From SAR202 cluster bacterium bin16 (GTDB lineage: Bacteria > Chloroflexota > Dehalococcoidia > Lucifugimonadales > Australimonadaceae), in the NCBI GenBank assembly GCA_002238425.1, contig MPMJ01000002.1, forward strand, positions 81,790 to 145,789: a DNA stretch of 64,000 nt, given 5' to 3'. The notes beneath the pieces are model-generated. The model had not been told where the DNA came from, searched no databases, and saw only the letters and a program-made list of their open reading frames with translations. This document shows, piece by piece, positions 37,523-59,167 of this stretch. A program made the position numbers and the translations under genes. The first letter of the stretch is position 1, and the number at the start of each line of letters is the position of its first letter.

Positions 37523-37597
37523 GCGGGAGTAGCTCAGTGGTAGAGCTCTTGCCTTCCAAGCAAGATGTCGCGGGTTCGAGTCCCGTCTCCCGCTCCA
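37523..37597 (+). tRNA. tRNA-Gly (anticodon TCC), CCA encoded
   Basis: The acceptor stem GCGGGAG (37523-37529) pairs with CTCCCGC (37587-37593), followed by discriminator T and encoded CCA. The D-arm GCTC...GAGC, the anticodon loop CTTCCAA with anticodon TCC, and the T-arm CGGGTTCGAGTCCCG all fold. Length is 75 bases with CCA. It reads GGA and GGG codons. Confidence 0.97.
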
Positions 37598-54456: not shown

Positions 54457-55080
54457 ATGACATCCCCCGACGACACACCCCAGACCGACGCGCCACCCAG
54501 CGATACGCCTGCCTCGGGAAGGAGACGCCTGCTCTTCTTCCTGCTGGCAATGACGCCTGTGCTGGCCATCATCGGCTTGCTCTTCTGGGGCCAGTTGCGC
54601 TCCGACGGCAACCCCGGCGGCGTGCTCGTGCATGAAGAGTCGAGCGAATCGCAGGTGCCCGTGCGGCAAGCGCCCTGGTTCGGCGGGTACGACCTCGTCT
54701 CCAAGGGCCGTGTCGACGCGGAGGACTTGCGCGGGCGCGTCGTGATGGTCGACTTCTGGTCGTCGTGGTGCGTTGCCTGCCGGATCGAAGCCGCCGACCT
54801 CGCGGAGGTGTACCGCGAGTACGACTCCGCCAACGTCGAGTTCGTCGGCATCGCCGTCTGGGACCGTCCCGCCGATGCAGAGGAGCACATCGAGCGCTAT
54901 GACGTGACCTACCTCAACATCCTCGATCCACGCGGCACGATGGCCGTTTCGTACGGTGTACGCGGCGTCCCCGAGAAGTTCTTCCTGGACGCCGAGGGGC
55001 GCATCGTCCGCAAGCTCATCGGGCCTGTCTCAGCCGAGGACCTGCGCAGTATCCTCGACGGCCTGCTCACGGCCTCGTAG
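54457..55080 (+). CDS. TlpA-like membrane-anchored thioredoxin
   Basis: The 207-residue product has one membrane helix (about 24-46) and an outer thioredoxin domain with the active site WCVAC (C105, C108) and the cis-proline in VRGVPEKF. Such ResA/TlpA proteins reduce disulfides outside the membrane, for example in cytochrome c maturation. It begins 31 bases after the propeller protein and lies 4 bases before mutY. The cysteine-containing surface protein next door is a possible client (inference). Confidence 0.85.
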   Translation: MTSPDDTPQTDAPPSDTPASGRRRLLFFLLAMTPVLAIIGLLFWGQLRSDGNPGGVLVHEESSESQVPVRQAPWFGGYDLVSKGRVDAEDLRGRVVMVDFWSSWCVACRIEAADLAEVYREYDSANVEFVGIAVWDRPADAEEHIERYDVTYLNILDPRGTMAVSYGVRGVPEKFFLDAEGRIVRKLIGPVSAEDLRSILDGLLTAS

Positions 55081-55084
55081 CGCG

Positions 55085-56005
55085 ATGGTCGACGCTCGCG
55101 CCATCCACGATGCCGTCGCCGCGTGGTACGCGCGCAACGCCCGCGTCCTGCCTTGGCGCGGCATCGCGGACCCGTACGCCATCCTCGTATCGGAGATCAT
55201 GCTCCAACAGACGCAGGTGGAGCGGGTCGTCCCGAAATACCACGCCTTCCTCGACGCCTTCCCCACCCTCCAGGCGCTTGCCGACGCCCAGCCCGCTGGG
55301 GTCATCCGCATCTGGGCCGGCATGGGCTACAACGGCCGCGCCGTCCGTCTGCATAATCTCGCCAGGGAAGTCGTAGAGCGCTACAGCGGCGAACTTCCCC
55401 GCACGGCCGACGAGCTACGGAAGCTCCCCGGTATCGGTCCGTACACGGCCGCTGCAGTTGCATCTTTTGCGTTCGGTGAGCCCGTCGCGGTGCTGGACAC
55501 GAACATCTATCGCGTGTTGAGCCGTACTGTCCACGGCGTTGACGCTCCGTCGCGTGAAGCGATCCATCCGCTCGCCGAATCGTTGCTTCCTCAGCAAGAC
55601 AGCCCCATCACACCAGCCGACTGGCACCAGGCGCTGATGGACATCGGCGCAACGCTCTGCACTTCCCGGCAACCGCGCTGCATGCTCTGCCCGCTGCGAC
55701 CGCGCTGCGCCGCCGCGCCGTACCTGCAGTCCGGCGGCGACCCTGCTCTCGCTGAATCGTCCGTTCCGTACGCGCCGCGTCAGTCGAGGTTCCAGGGCTC
55801 GGCGCGCTACTTCCGCGGACGCATCGTCGACTACCTGCGCGAGCAGCCCGATGCCGGCGTCGAGGAGCACACGCTCGAAGGAGTCATCAGCGACGCCGAA
55901 ACCGCGTCCGGCGCGCCCTGCCCTGTCTCACTGCCCGACCTTCTCGCCGCCCTCGAACGCGACGGCCTCATCCGCCGCGACAGCGGACGCGTACGCCTGC
56001 CGTGA
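55085..56005 (+). CDS. mutY: A/G-specific adenine DNA glycosylase without NUDIX-like domain
   Basis: MutY removes adenine mispaired with 8-oxoguanine. The 306-residue product has the catalytic glutamate in SEIMLQQTQV, the helix-hairpin-helix LPGIGPYTAAAV, the aspartate in VLDTNIYRVLSR, and the 4Fe-4S ligands spaced C-x6-C-x2-C-x5-C (CTSRQPRCMLC...RC, about 191-207). The C-terminal domain is not the usual NUDIX-like 8-oxoG reader; instead about 75 residues look like a winged helix (LLAALERDGLIRRDSGRVRL). The ATG at 55085 follows the thioredoxin stop. The region after the stop is duplicated. Confidence 0.88.
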   Translation: MVDARAIHDAVAAWYARNARVLPWRGIADPYAILVSEIMLQQTQVERVVPKYHAFLDAFPTLQALADAQPAGVIRIWAGMGYNGRAVRLHNLAREVVERYSGELPRTADELRKLPGIGPYTAAAVASFAFGEPVAVLDTNIYRVLSRTVHGVDAPSREAIHPLAESLLPQQDSPITPADWHQALMDIGATLCTSRQPRCMLCPLRPRCAAAPYLQSGGDPALAESSVPYAPRQSRFQGSARYFRGRIVDYLREQPDAGVEEHTLEGVISDAETASGAPCPVSLPDLLAALERDGLIRRDSGRVRLP

Positions 56006-56103
56006 CCTACTCCACCCGCCCCCCCCCCCCCCCCCCGGACCCGGCCGCCCCCCCCCGCGCGGCCGGCGGCGGCGTCCCCCTGCCGTGACCTACTCCACCC
56101 GCC
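55989..56103. repeat. 32-base direct repeat flanking a pure G/C insert
   Basis: Bases 55989-56020 and 56072-56103 are the same over 32 positions with two differences, 83 bases apart. Between them 51 bases contain only G and C apart from one A, with a run of 16 or more C. The repeat contains the end of mutY and the end of the Ham1-like gene. Genes on both sides remain in frame. Confidence 0.85.
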
Positions 56104-56704
56104 CTATCAACCCCCGCAGCGGCTCGCGCAGCGACATCCACGGGTCGCCCAGCCTTTCCGTATCTTCCCCAGACAGCGCCCAGCGGCGCACGCCGTCAGG
56201 CGTCACCCAGAGACCGCCCACCCAGAACCCATTTGTGCCGCCCTCCGGGGGGACGAAGTCCTGTGCGATGTAGCCCTCCAGCCCATTCGCTTCCCACGCG
56301 CCGAGCAGTTCACCCGCCCGTGCGACCGCAACCGCTTCCGTCCACCAGCATGCACGACGCTCGCCTTCGAGGTCGCGCATTCGACGCAGCAGACGATGTG
56401 CGCGCTCCTCATCCGGCACGTCCTCGCCGGTGCCGCGACGCGTGATGAGGCTCGACCAGCCGTCGCCCAGTGCAGGGATGCTCAGCCCGCCGTCCGACGC
56501 CACCACGAGCGCGCTGAGCGCCCGCGACCACGCAACTGCCTTCCCGATGGCAATAGCGAGGTGAGAACCACCCTCCTCGTCAACGTCCGGCGCATCCGTG
56601 AACGACGCCCCGTCCGACAGCTCCACGTCGAGCCCGGCCATCAGTTCACGCAGTTGAGCTGCCTTCGCCTGGTTCCGCGTCGCGAGTACGAGCGTCAAGC
56701 CCAT
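56090..56704 (-). CDS. Ham1/RdgB-like NTP pyrophosphatase, divergent
   Basis: The 204-residue product opens LVLATRNQAKAAQLREL, the Ham1 N-terminal motif that binds nucleotide, and has GSHLAIAIGKA. The usual catalytic stretch ADDSGL reads ASDGGL, retaining one aspartate. RdgB enzymes hydrolyse ITP, XTP and dITP. The start at 56704 shares one base with the mutL stop (TGATG), fixing it; a longer ORF to 56869 lies in mutL. It follows mutL in the same repair operon. Confidence 0.65.
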   Translation of the reverse strand: MGLTLVLATRNQAKAAQLRELMAGLDVELSDGASFTDAPDVDEEGGSHLAIAIGKAVAWSRALSALVVASDGGLSIPALGDGWSSLITRRGTGEDVPDEERAHRLLRRMRDLEGERRACWWTEAVAVARAGELLGAWEANGLEGYIAQDFVPPEGGTNGFWVGGLWVTPDGVRRWALSGEDTERLGDPWMSLREPLRGLIGRVE

Positions 56705-58431
56705 CACAGCCGCCCGAATTGTCTCCCGAGCACGTCCTTCGATACTCGGATGACCGTCGGTCTGCCGTGGGGACAGTGCTGCGGGTTCATTTCGGAGGCC
56801 AACGCTTCGCCGAGCGCCGTCATCTCCTGGTGGTCGAGCGTCTGCCCTGCCCGTACGGCGCTGTGACACGCGATGGACGCAGCCGCCGACAGGTGCGTGT
56901 CCGTCCCGTTGCAGCGCGTCGAGAGACCGTCCAGCGCCTCGGCCACCAGCTTCGCGGCGTCCACGCGGCGCGCCATCACCGGCACTGCGCGCACCAGGAG
57001 TGTGTCGTCACCGAACGGCTCCACGAATAGCCCGTAGCGCTCCAGCACTGCCCGCCCCTCGCCGAGCGCGTCCATCTGCTGCGGTGTCAGGCCCATCGCC
57101 AGCGGCTCCAGCATCGGCTGCACCTCCGGCGCGCTGTTCGCCCACTGTCGCAGCAGCCGGTAGTACAGCACCGACTCGTGCGCCGCGTGCTGGTCGATCA
57201 GGTACATGCCGTCCGGCCCGTCCGCCACGATGTACGTATTCGCGACCTGCCCCAGCACGCGCAGTCGCGACAGCGGAGACGCGCCAGGAGGCGGTGCTAG
57301 TGGCTCGTGCTCATCAGATGCGACAGGCGAGGGTTCCGGCAGCGGTGACTGCTCCCGCTCCTGTGTCGTGAACGTCAGCTCCGGCTGAAGCGACGGCGGA
57401 GCAGCCACGGCCTGCGACAACAGACCTTCCCCTTCCGCAACAGGCGACGCCGCTAGTAGCGCGCCCCGTACCGCGTGTTGCACGCTGGAGAACGCATCGC
57501 CCTCGTGCGACAGCCGCACCTCGCGCTTGTTCGGGTGCACGTTCACGTCCACCTCGCCGGGCGGCACGTTCAGGAACACGACCGCTATCGGGAATCGCCC
57601 CTCTATCAGAAGGCCGCGATACGCCTCCTCGATGGCAACACCGATGGCCCGATGCTGCACCCAGCGGTTGTTCACGAACAGGCTGATGCCGGTCCGGTTC
57701 GCACGGTTCTGCTCGGGCGTTCCCACGAGCCCCCACACGGGGTAGGCCCCCGTCCATGAGCCGACCTCGATCATCGCCTGCGCCAGCTCCGCGCCGTGCA
57801 CAGCCGCCACCGTGTCGCGCAGGCTGCCGTTGCCGGACGTTGCGAGTTGTAGTTTGCCGTCCGTCCTGAGCGTGAACTGGATGTGCGGGTGCGCCATCGC
57901 CAGGTGGTCGACCGTCTGGCGCACACGCGCCGTTTCCGCCGCGGCTGACCGGATGAACTTGAGTCGCGCCGGTATCGTCGAGAAGAGCGCCTCGACCTCG
58001 ATCGTCGTTCCTGCGCCCGCGCCTGCCGCCGACTGCCGAACGATGGCGCCGCCTTCCAACTCGACCGTTGTCGCCGACTCCACGTCCGCCGTGCGCGTCG
58101 TCATGCGCACGCTCGCCGCAGCCGCGATGCTCGCCAACGCCTCTCCACGGAATCCAAGCGTTCCGATGTCGCCCAGGTCTTCCACCGAGGCTAGCTTGCT
58201 CGTCGCGTGGCGTTCGAACGCCAGCGCCACTTCGTCCGCCGGTATGCCGCAGCCGTCGTCCCTAACGCGTATCGAGGCCAGCCCGCCGTGCCGTATCTCA
58301 ACGCCGATGACGCGCCCGCCCGCGTCCAGCGAGTTCTCGACCAACTCCTTGACCACCGAGGCCGGACGCTCGATGACCTCGCCCGCCGCGATCCGCGCCG
58401 CAACCCCAGCAGGCAGCACCCGTATAGTCAT
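56704..58431 (-). CDS. mutL: DNA mismatch repair protein MutL
   Basis: The 575-residue product has the GHKL ATPase motifs: ELVENSLDAGG, DDGCGIP, FERHATSKL and GTLGFRGEAL. The C-terminal endonuclease metal motif DQHA-x2-E-x4-E is present as DQHAAHESVLYY (about 413-424), with the last glutamate replaced by tyrosine. CPHGRPT is intact and the other helper motif reads ACHSAVRAG. MutS is not in the window. The ATG at 58431 overlaps the stop of the selenoprotein-like gene by one base. Extension to 59241 is a shadow. Confidence 0.93.
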   Translation of the reverse strand: MTIRVLPAGVAARIAAGEVIERPASVVKELVENSLDAGGRVIGVEIRHGGLASIRVRDDGCGIPADEVALAFERHATSKLASVEDLGDIGTLGFRGEALASIAAAASVRMTTRTADVESATTVELEGGAIVRQSAAGAGAGTTIEVEALFSTIPARLKFIRSAAAETARVRQTVDHLAMAHPHIQFTLRTDGKLQLATSGNGSLRDTVAAVHGAELAQAMIEVGSWTGAYPVWGLVGTPEQNRANRTGISLFVNNRWVQHRAIGVAIEEAYRGLLIEGRFPIAVVFLNVPPGEVDVNVHPNKREVRLSHEGDAFSSVQHAVRGALLAASPVAEGEGLLSQAVAAPPSLQPELTFTTQEREQSPLPEPSPVASDEHEPLAPPPGASPLSRLRVLGQVANTYIVADGPDGMYLIDQHAAHESVLYYRLLRQWANSAPEVQPMLEPLAMGLTPQQMDALGEGRAVLERYGLFVEPFGDDTLLVRAVPVMARRVDAAKLVAEALDGLSTRCNGTDTHLSAAASIACHSAVRAGQTLDHQEMTALGEALASEMNPQHCPHGRPTVIRVSKDVLGRQFGRL

Positions 58432-58781
58432 CAGAACCCCAGCATCGCGCCAAGCTGCTTCGCGTTCGCTCCGGCCACGAGCCTTCCGTCCACTACTGCG
58501 GTTGGACGCTTCCAGTAGCGCGGCTCCTCCACCAGCAGGTCCAGCATCCGCTCCTCCGTCAGCGATCCCGGGTCGATGCCGCTCTTGCGGAACGTCGCCG
58601 ACCTCAGGTTGAACAGCGTGCTCGGAGGATTGCCGCCCAGCAGCGACTCGATCTCCTCGCGGGAGAGACGTTGCTTGAAAAAGTCCCGTTCTGTGAACGC
58701 GATACCTGCCTGCGAGAGCGCCGCCCTCGCCGTCTTGCACGTTCCTCACCCGGCCCAGTGATACAGCGCGACATCGGCCAT
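58431..58781 (-). CDS. ArsC/Spx-like thioredoxin-fold protein with in-frame TGA (probable selenoprotein)
   Basis: Reading from ATG 58781, which has GGAGGT six bases upstream, the frame gives MADVALYHWAG, then TGA (58748-58746), then GTCKTARAALSQAGI and so on to a TGA stop at 58431, 116 residues with the internal TGA decoded. This matches the ArsC/Spx/glutaredoxin-like opening LYxxxGC-x-x-C-K-x-A, with the TGA exactly at the first redox cysteine (U12-G-T-C15). The rest (ERDFFK, LLGGNPPSTLFNLRS, ERMLDLLVEEPRYWKRP) fits the family. The stop overlaps the mutL ATG, implying translation through the TGA. A hairpin suitable for SECIS follows the TGA. A stop-codon pseudogene is the alternative. Confidence 0.75.
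58712..58730 (-). promoter_or_regulatory. SECIS-like hairpin downstream of the in-frame TGA
   Basis: On the minus strand, 15 bases after the TGA, GCGAGGGC (58730-58723) pairs with GCTCTCGC (58719-58712) with one G-T pair, around a GGC loop. Bacterial SECIS elements have a short hairpin at this distance with guanine early in the loop. In G+C-rich DNA such hairpins also arise by chance. Confidence 0.5.
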
Positions 58782-59167
58782 CAACACACCTCCGTAGTCG
58801 TCTGTCCATGGTACGCACGCGCCGCACGCCTGCGCCAGCGATGCCGGCGGCCAGGATGCACGGGATGTCCGGTGTCCGGCGCATGGAAACCCTGTCAGGC
58901 TGCTCGCCGTCCGGCGCTGTCATCTTCGCACCACTCCTCCCTGTCCCGCGCGCAGGTGTGGGCTGCGCTGCTGTGTCCACTCCATGTGGGACATCCTGAG
59001 ACATTGTGAGACATTCCACTCCTGCGACTTGCCTCGTGCCAAGGCAGGCCCACCACGGCGCTCGTACCGTCACCGACCAACGTACCCGCTCGGAGGGCAT
59101 CCGCGTAAGGGGCGGATGTCGCACTGCGTTGCCGAACGCTCCGCGCTCCCCTACCATGCCGCCCGCT
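58782..59167. other. 386-base region between the mutL operon and a CopD-like gene
   Basis: No convincing gene on either strand. It contains three related 9-base units, GGGACATCC (58988), TGAGACATT (58997) and TGAGACATT (59007), stepping 9-10 bases, which may be an operator in this divergent control region. The rest is G+C-rich with scattered short inverted repeats. Confidence 0.5.

Follow-up and report, generated by a model that had tools for sequence, protein, structure and literature searches.

The window analysed here is a stretch of 64,000 nucleotides from SAR202 cluster bacterium bin16, whose genome assembly comprises 3.22 Mb in 101 contigs and is 92.6% complete. Its minus strand carries a short gene with an in-frame TGA, followed by mutL (Table 1). 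Translation from the ATG gives MADVALYHWAGUGTCKTARAALSQAG..., with one internal TGA, which occupies the place of the first cysteine of a CxxC redox motif and yields U12-G-T-C15. A sequence-only reading had described this TGA, a frame unbroken on both sides of it, a ribosome site before the ATG and a true stop overlapping the mutL start. Each was found again: the translated product matches Pfam ArsC over residues 7-112 and Bacillus subtilis Spx over residues 4-110, GGAGG stands 7 nt 5' of the ATG, and stop and start share the sequence TGATG. Read on the plus strand, the same coordinates give no meaningful frame. No sigma-70-type promoter was found upstream of the gene, and the sole terminator-like site falls within it.

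Table 1. Features of the selenoprotein locus (positions in the window)
Feature	Position	Strand	Remarks
Selenoprotein gene, ArsC/Spx fold	58431..58781	minus	116 aa, Sec at residue 12
Start ATG of selenoprotein gene	58781-58779	minus	
In-frame TGA, read as selenocysteine (U12 of U-G-T-C motif)	58748-58746	minus	
Stop TGA of selenoprotein gene	58433-58431	minus	
GGAGG ribosome-binding site	58789..58793	minus	read directly; similar GGAGG in genus members
SECIS-like bacterial hairpin GCGAGGGC-GGC-GCUCUCGC	58712..58730	minus	15 nt after TGA
Apical loop of SECIS-like hairpin, conserved G	58722-58720	minus	
mutL, next gene downstream	56704..58431	minus	Pfam MutL_C + DNA_mis_repair
mutL ATG	58431-58429	minus	overlaps selenoprotein stop as TGATG

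We searched 294 genomes of the class for homologues. A match at E <= 1e-6 was obtained in 42, and 37 of these contain exactly one TGA. The motif could be read at 41 of the 42 loci, the match in G112 being partial with the motif outside its span. In the Sec forms the TGA supplies the leading residue of [U/C]xxC, and four of the five remaining matches (L037, L038, L039 and L060) have Cys instead. Down to about 31% identity the TGA falls at the same residue, well outside what chance would give, and in all aligned homologues the column holds either Cys or TGA, as the sequence-only reading would predict for a selenoprotein. U/C12, C15 and R92 are invariant in the family alignment. Among three genus members, purifying selection acts on the codons past the TGA (dN 0.05-0.07 versus dS 0.39-0.44), and changes there fall at third positions in 28 of 43 and 28 of 42 cases. 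Named relatives at 50-89% identity are assemblies of Chloroflexota, Dehalococcoidia and SAR202. Two Syntrophaceae contigs (L057 and L058, about 41% identity) also carry the TGA form with UxxC, so the family extends beyond Chloroflexota, suggesting either transfer or an old family. A match in Marinomonas (L059) was rejected as chance, its frame being unrelated. In G264, a genome of the same genus in one contig and 96% complete, SelA is present and no copy of the selenoprotein gene was found; the gene is therefore probably dispensable.

The machinery for selenocysteine is present in the same genome. Alongside a tRNA-Sec with anticodon TCA, we identified SelA (521.8 bits), SelB (346 bits) and SelD (391 bits), each over its curated cut-off, so that selA, selB, selC and selD, the set expected for a bacterial selenoprotein, are all accounted for. 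Across the class, SelA was matched in 35 of the 37 Sec-form genomes versus 162 of the 257 others (Fisher p 5e-5, not a strict value since the genomes are related); the two Sec-form genomes with no SelA match are drafts, 81% and 90% complete. SelD is known to occur as a selenoprotein, and the SelD of this genome (L016:1501-2418; G000:C87:90710-91627) is of that form, with its own in-frame TGA near the N-terminus, as residue 11 of the translated stretch.

Just downstream of the TGA lies a SECIS-like hairpin. In an alignment of 23 Sec forms its stem comprises 8 bp (columns 19-26 with 30-37). Of its cells 97.8% pair, and four pairs have changed on both sides, although the 23 rows were picked for showing the hairpin in register, which inflates the pairing percentage and affects the double changes less. 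Double-change cells number 28 versus 10.6 in shuffles, a value reached in 0 of 500 shuffles, and pairing falls to 36-70% when the partner is slid. RNAalifold recovers the same stem unaided. With every sequence cut at the TGA and no gaps in the alignment, the reading frame sets the register. A G occupies the first or second loop base in 23 of 23 Sec forms, so the element has both the position downstream of TGA and the apical-loop G of a SECIS-type hairpin. The hairpin stretch GCGAGGGCGGCGCTCTCGC is identical in the three genus members compared for selection. Of 27 aligned Sec forms, 26 use CTC or CTT for a paired Leu codon of the 3' arm. The Cys forms L038 and L039 use CTG there, and in the Cys forms the hairpin is not formed. 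Four of the 27 (L034, L043, L046 and L048) do not show the hairpin in the common register, and their single-sequence folds give other stems that differ in position or sequence. Folded singly (49 nt), the window hairpin is moderately better than shuffles (z -2.2); the comparative evidence is stronger than single-sequence folding.

If a Cys gene were decaying, a sequencing error or nonsense mutation would need only one base change, from TGC or TGT to TGA. However, the same TGA recurs in independent genomes as far as the most distant homologues, selection has preserved the codons past it and the hairpin covaries. The homologues refute this explanation, to which we assign a negligible probability. 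A frame that stays open with TGA taken as any residue would also suit recoding to Trp, or readthrough with some residue other than Sec. This too is very improbable, since the TGA column pairs with Cys and never with Trp, the genome holds the full Sec machinery, and the true stops of the selenoprotein and related genes are themselves TGA. From these sequence comparisons, the internal TGA almost certainly encodes selenocysteine. The comparative evidence points to decoding by SelB with Sec-tRNA(Sec), which would be directed by the hairpin.

The product has the ArsC/Spx fold. Pfam ArsC (PF03960) matches with 42 bits, above the gathering cut-off of 24 (E 1e-10), and an AlphaFold2 model has a pLDDT of 93.7, with Spx, YffB and ArsC-family structures in the top PDB ranks of Foldseek. 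A profile of the family searched against PDB retrieves Spx (E 8e-26) and also E. coli ArsC (E 1e-10). The highest-scoring curated NCBIfam models, those for Spx/MgsR, ArsC and related proteins, all fall short of their cut-offs: TIGR01617 (Spx/MgsR) at 54.6 bits versus 75.05, and TIGR00014 (glutaredoxin-dependent arsenate reductase) at 32.3 versus 106. NF041106 (ArsC_rel_Se_1) scores 20.1 bits versus a cut-off of 85, its best E-value among 30 family members is only 3.7e-12, and at E 1e-15 it matches none of the 294 class genomes, a search in which no control matched. The kind of protein is known, but this subfamily is not covered by NF041106 and seems to be without a covering model among those tried. 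No other ArsC-family gene was found in the source genome. Together, the machinery, the Sec/Cys pairs, the covarying hairpin and the fold bear out the earlier proposal of a selenoprotein of ArsC/Spx type.

We take cd03032 to be the Spx subfamily of ArsC. Under cd03032, the GOS survey of 2008 described a selenoprotein family 'Arsenate reductase 2' with UxxC, comprising 42 Sec sequences and 238 Cys homologues (PMC2398784), and a Sargasso Sea survey of 2005 had reported an arsenate reductase selenoprotein, COG1393, with UxxS (PMC1088965). The earlier claim that the protein is new as a kind does not stand, as ArsC/Spx selenoproteins with UxxC were already known from ocean metagenomes in 2008. Compared by description, the GOS family shares with ours the fold, Sec first in UxxC and marine bacterial hosts; it differs in that a 2026 review lists it as 'Arsenate reductase-like protein' under NF041106 (PMC13188914), whereas the window protein falls below that cut-off. 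The Sargasso protein is likewise of the ArsC family with Sec at the catalytic Cys, but its UxxS lacks a resolving Cys. For selenoproteins in SAR202 we found no report in the open papers searched.

By analogy with related enzymes, and from the fold and the UxxC motif, we infer a role, a substrate and a partner for the protein. A thioredoxin-fold selenol/thiol reductase is the most likely function. In such a small oxidoreductase, the U12 selenolate would attack an oxidised substrate, C15 would resolve the intermediate as a selenenylsulfide, and a thioredoxin-type partner would then re-reduce it. Its substrates are more probably disulfides, of proteins or of low molecular weight, than arsenate. 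The explanation as a whole, Sec inserted through SelB and the hairpin into a small ArsC/Spx-fold selenol oxidoreductase, we regard as probable.

Two alternatives concern this function. The Pfam ArsC match and the naming of such families in earlier surveys (PMC2398784) would suit a genuine arsenate reductase whose nucleophile is Sec. The protein shares the fold and nucleophile position of E. coli ArsC, and in alignment with the plasmid enzyme C12 pairs with U12, and all 30 sequences retain R94. Of the three arginines that bind arsenate in E. coli ArsC, at positions 60, 94 and 107, however, only R94 is conserved; the R60 and R107 columns, less certain because the alignment is gapped there, are not kept as Arg, and no reading of the family alignment yields an invariant Arg near either. 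With the TIGR00014 cut-off missed and CxxC in place of CxxS, a putative arsenate reductase is unlikely. The closest solved relative and best fold match is Spx, with about 30% identity to the B. subtilis protein in the fold match. RRP and the CxxC motif are found in both, the first Cys of the motif being Sec in the selenoprotein. The protein could then be a putative regulator that binds RNA polymerase and is switched by a Sec-Cys redox pair. The score below the Spx/MgsR cut-off argues against it, as do a C-terminus that ends where the Spx tail starts and a loop two residues shorter than the one in Spx holding a glycine that contacts the alpha-CTD. A regulator of this type we consider decidedly improbable, and slightly more so a putative transcription regulator switched by the Sec-Cys selenenylsulfide, with DNA-repair genes adjoining. 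If it were true, selenium would set the sensing potential of a stress response.

The finding adds one more selenoprotein to those of an abundant marine lineage and leaves known principles unchanged. In SAR202-type Chloroflexota this gene is cut short or overlooked by standard gene calling, and the Sec form is present in at least 37 of the 294 genomes of the sampled class. Sec/Cys pairs of the subfamily form a clean set, accompanied by a covarying SECIS.

The sequence-only reading had also proposed coupling to mismatch repair, which stands in part. mutL lies directly downstream in eight assemblies (L020, L026, L050-L054 and L056), and those of known placement all belong to family f1, the taxonomic family of the source genome. 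Among genus members, stop and mutL start overlap in L020, L050 and L052 and almost overlap in L053, while in L051 mutL homology begins about 100 nt further on; genus g2 (L026 and L056) has a gap of about 60 nt. Family f16 orthologues at 65-68% identity (L023, L024/L055 and L025) have no mutL within stretches of 1.5-3 kb. Because the overlap was seen in the genus only and the f16 orthologues lack mutL nearby, translational coupling is possible at genus level but, judging by gene order, does not belong to the general biology of this protein family. Past mutL come a Ham1/RdgB-like gene and a convergent MutY-like glycosylase, and by reading, similar frames follow mutL in L054 and L056. Elsewhere in the window, a tRNA gene at 37523-37594 is the single Rfam match. 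From 54457 to 58781 the window holds a TlpA/AhpC-like thioredoxin, the MutY-like glycosylase, the Ham1/RdgB-like gene, mutL and the selenoprotein gene, a neighbourhood of redox and DNA-repair functions.
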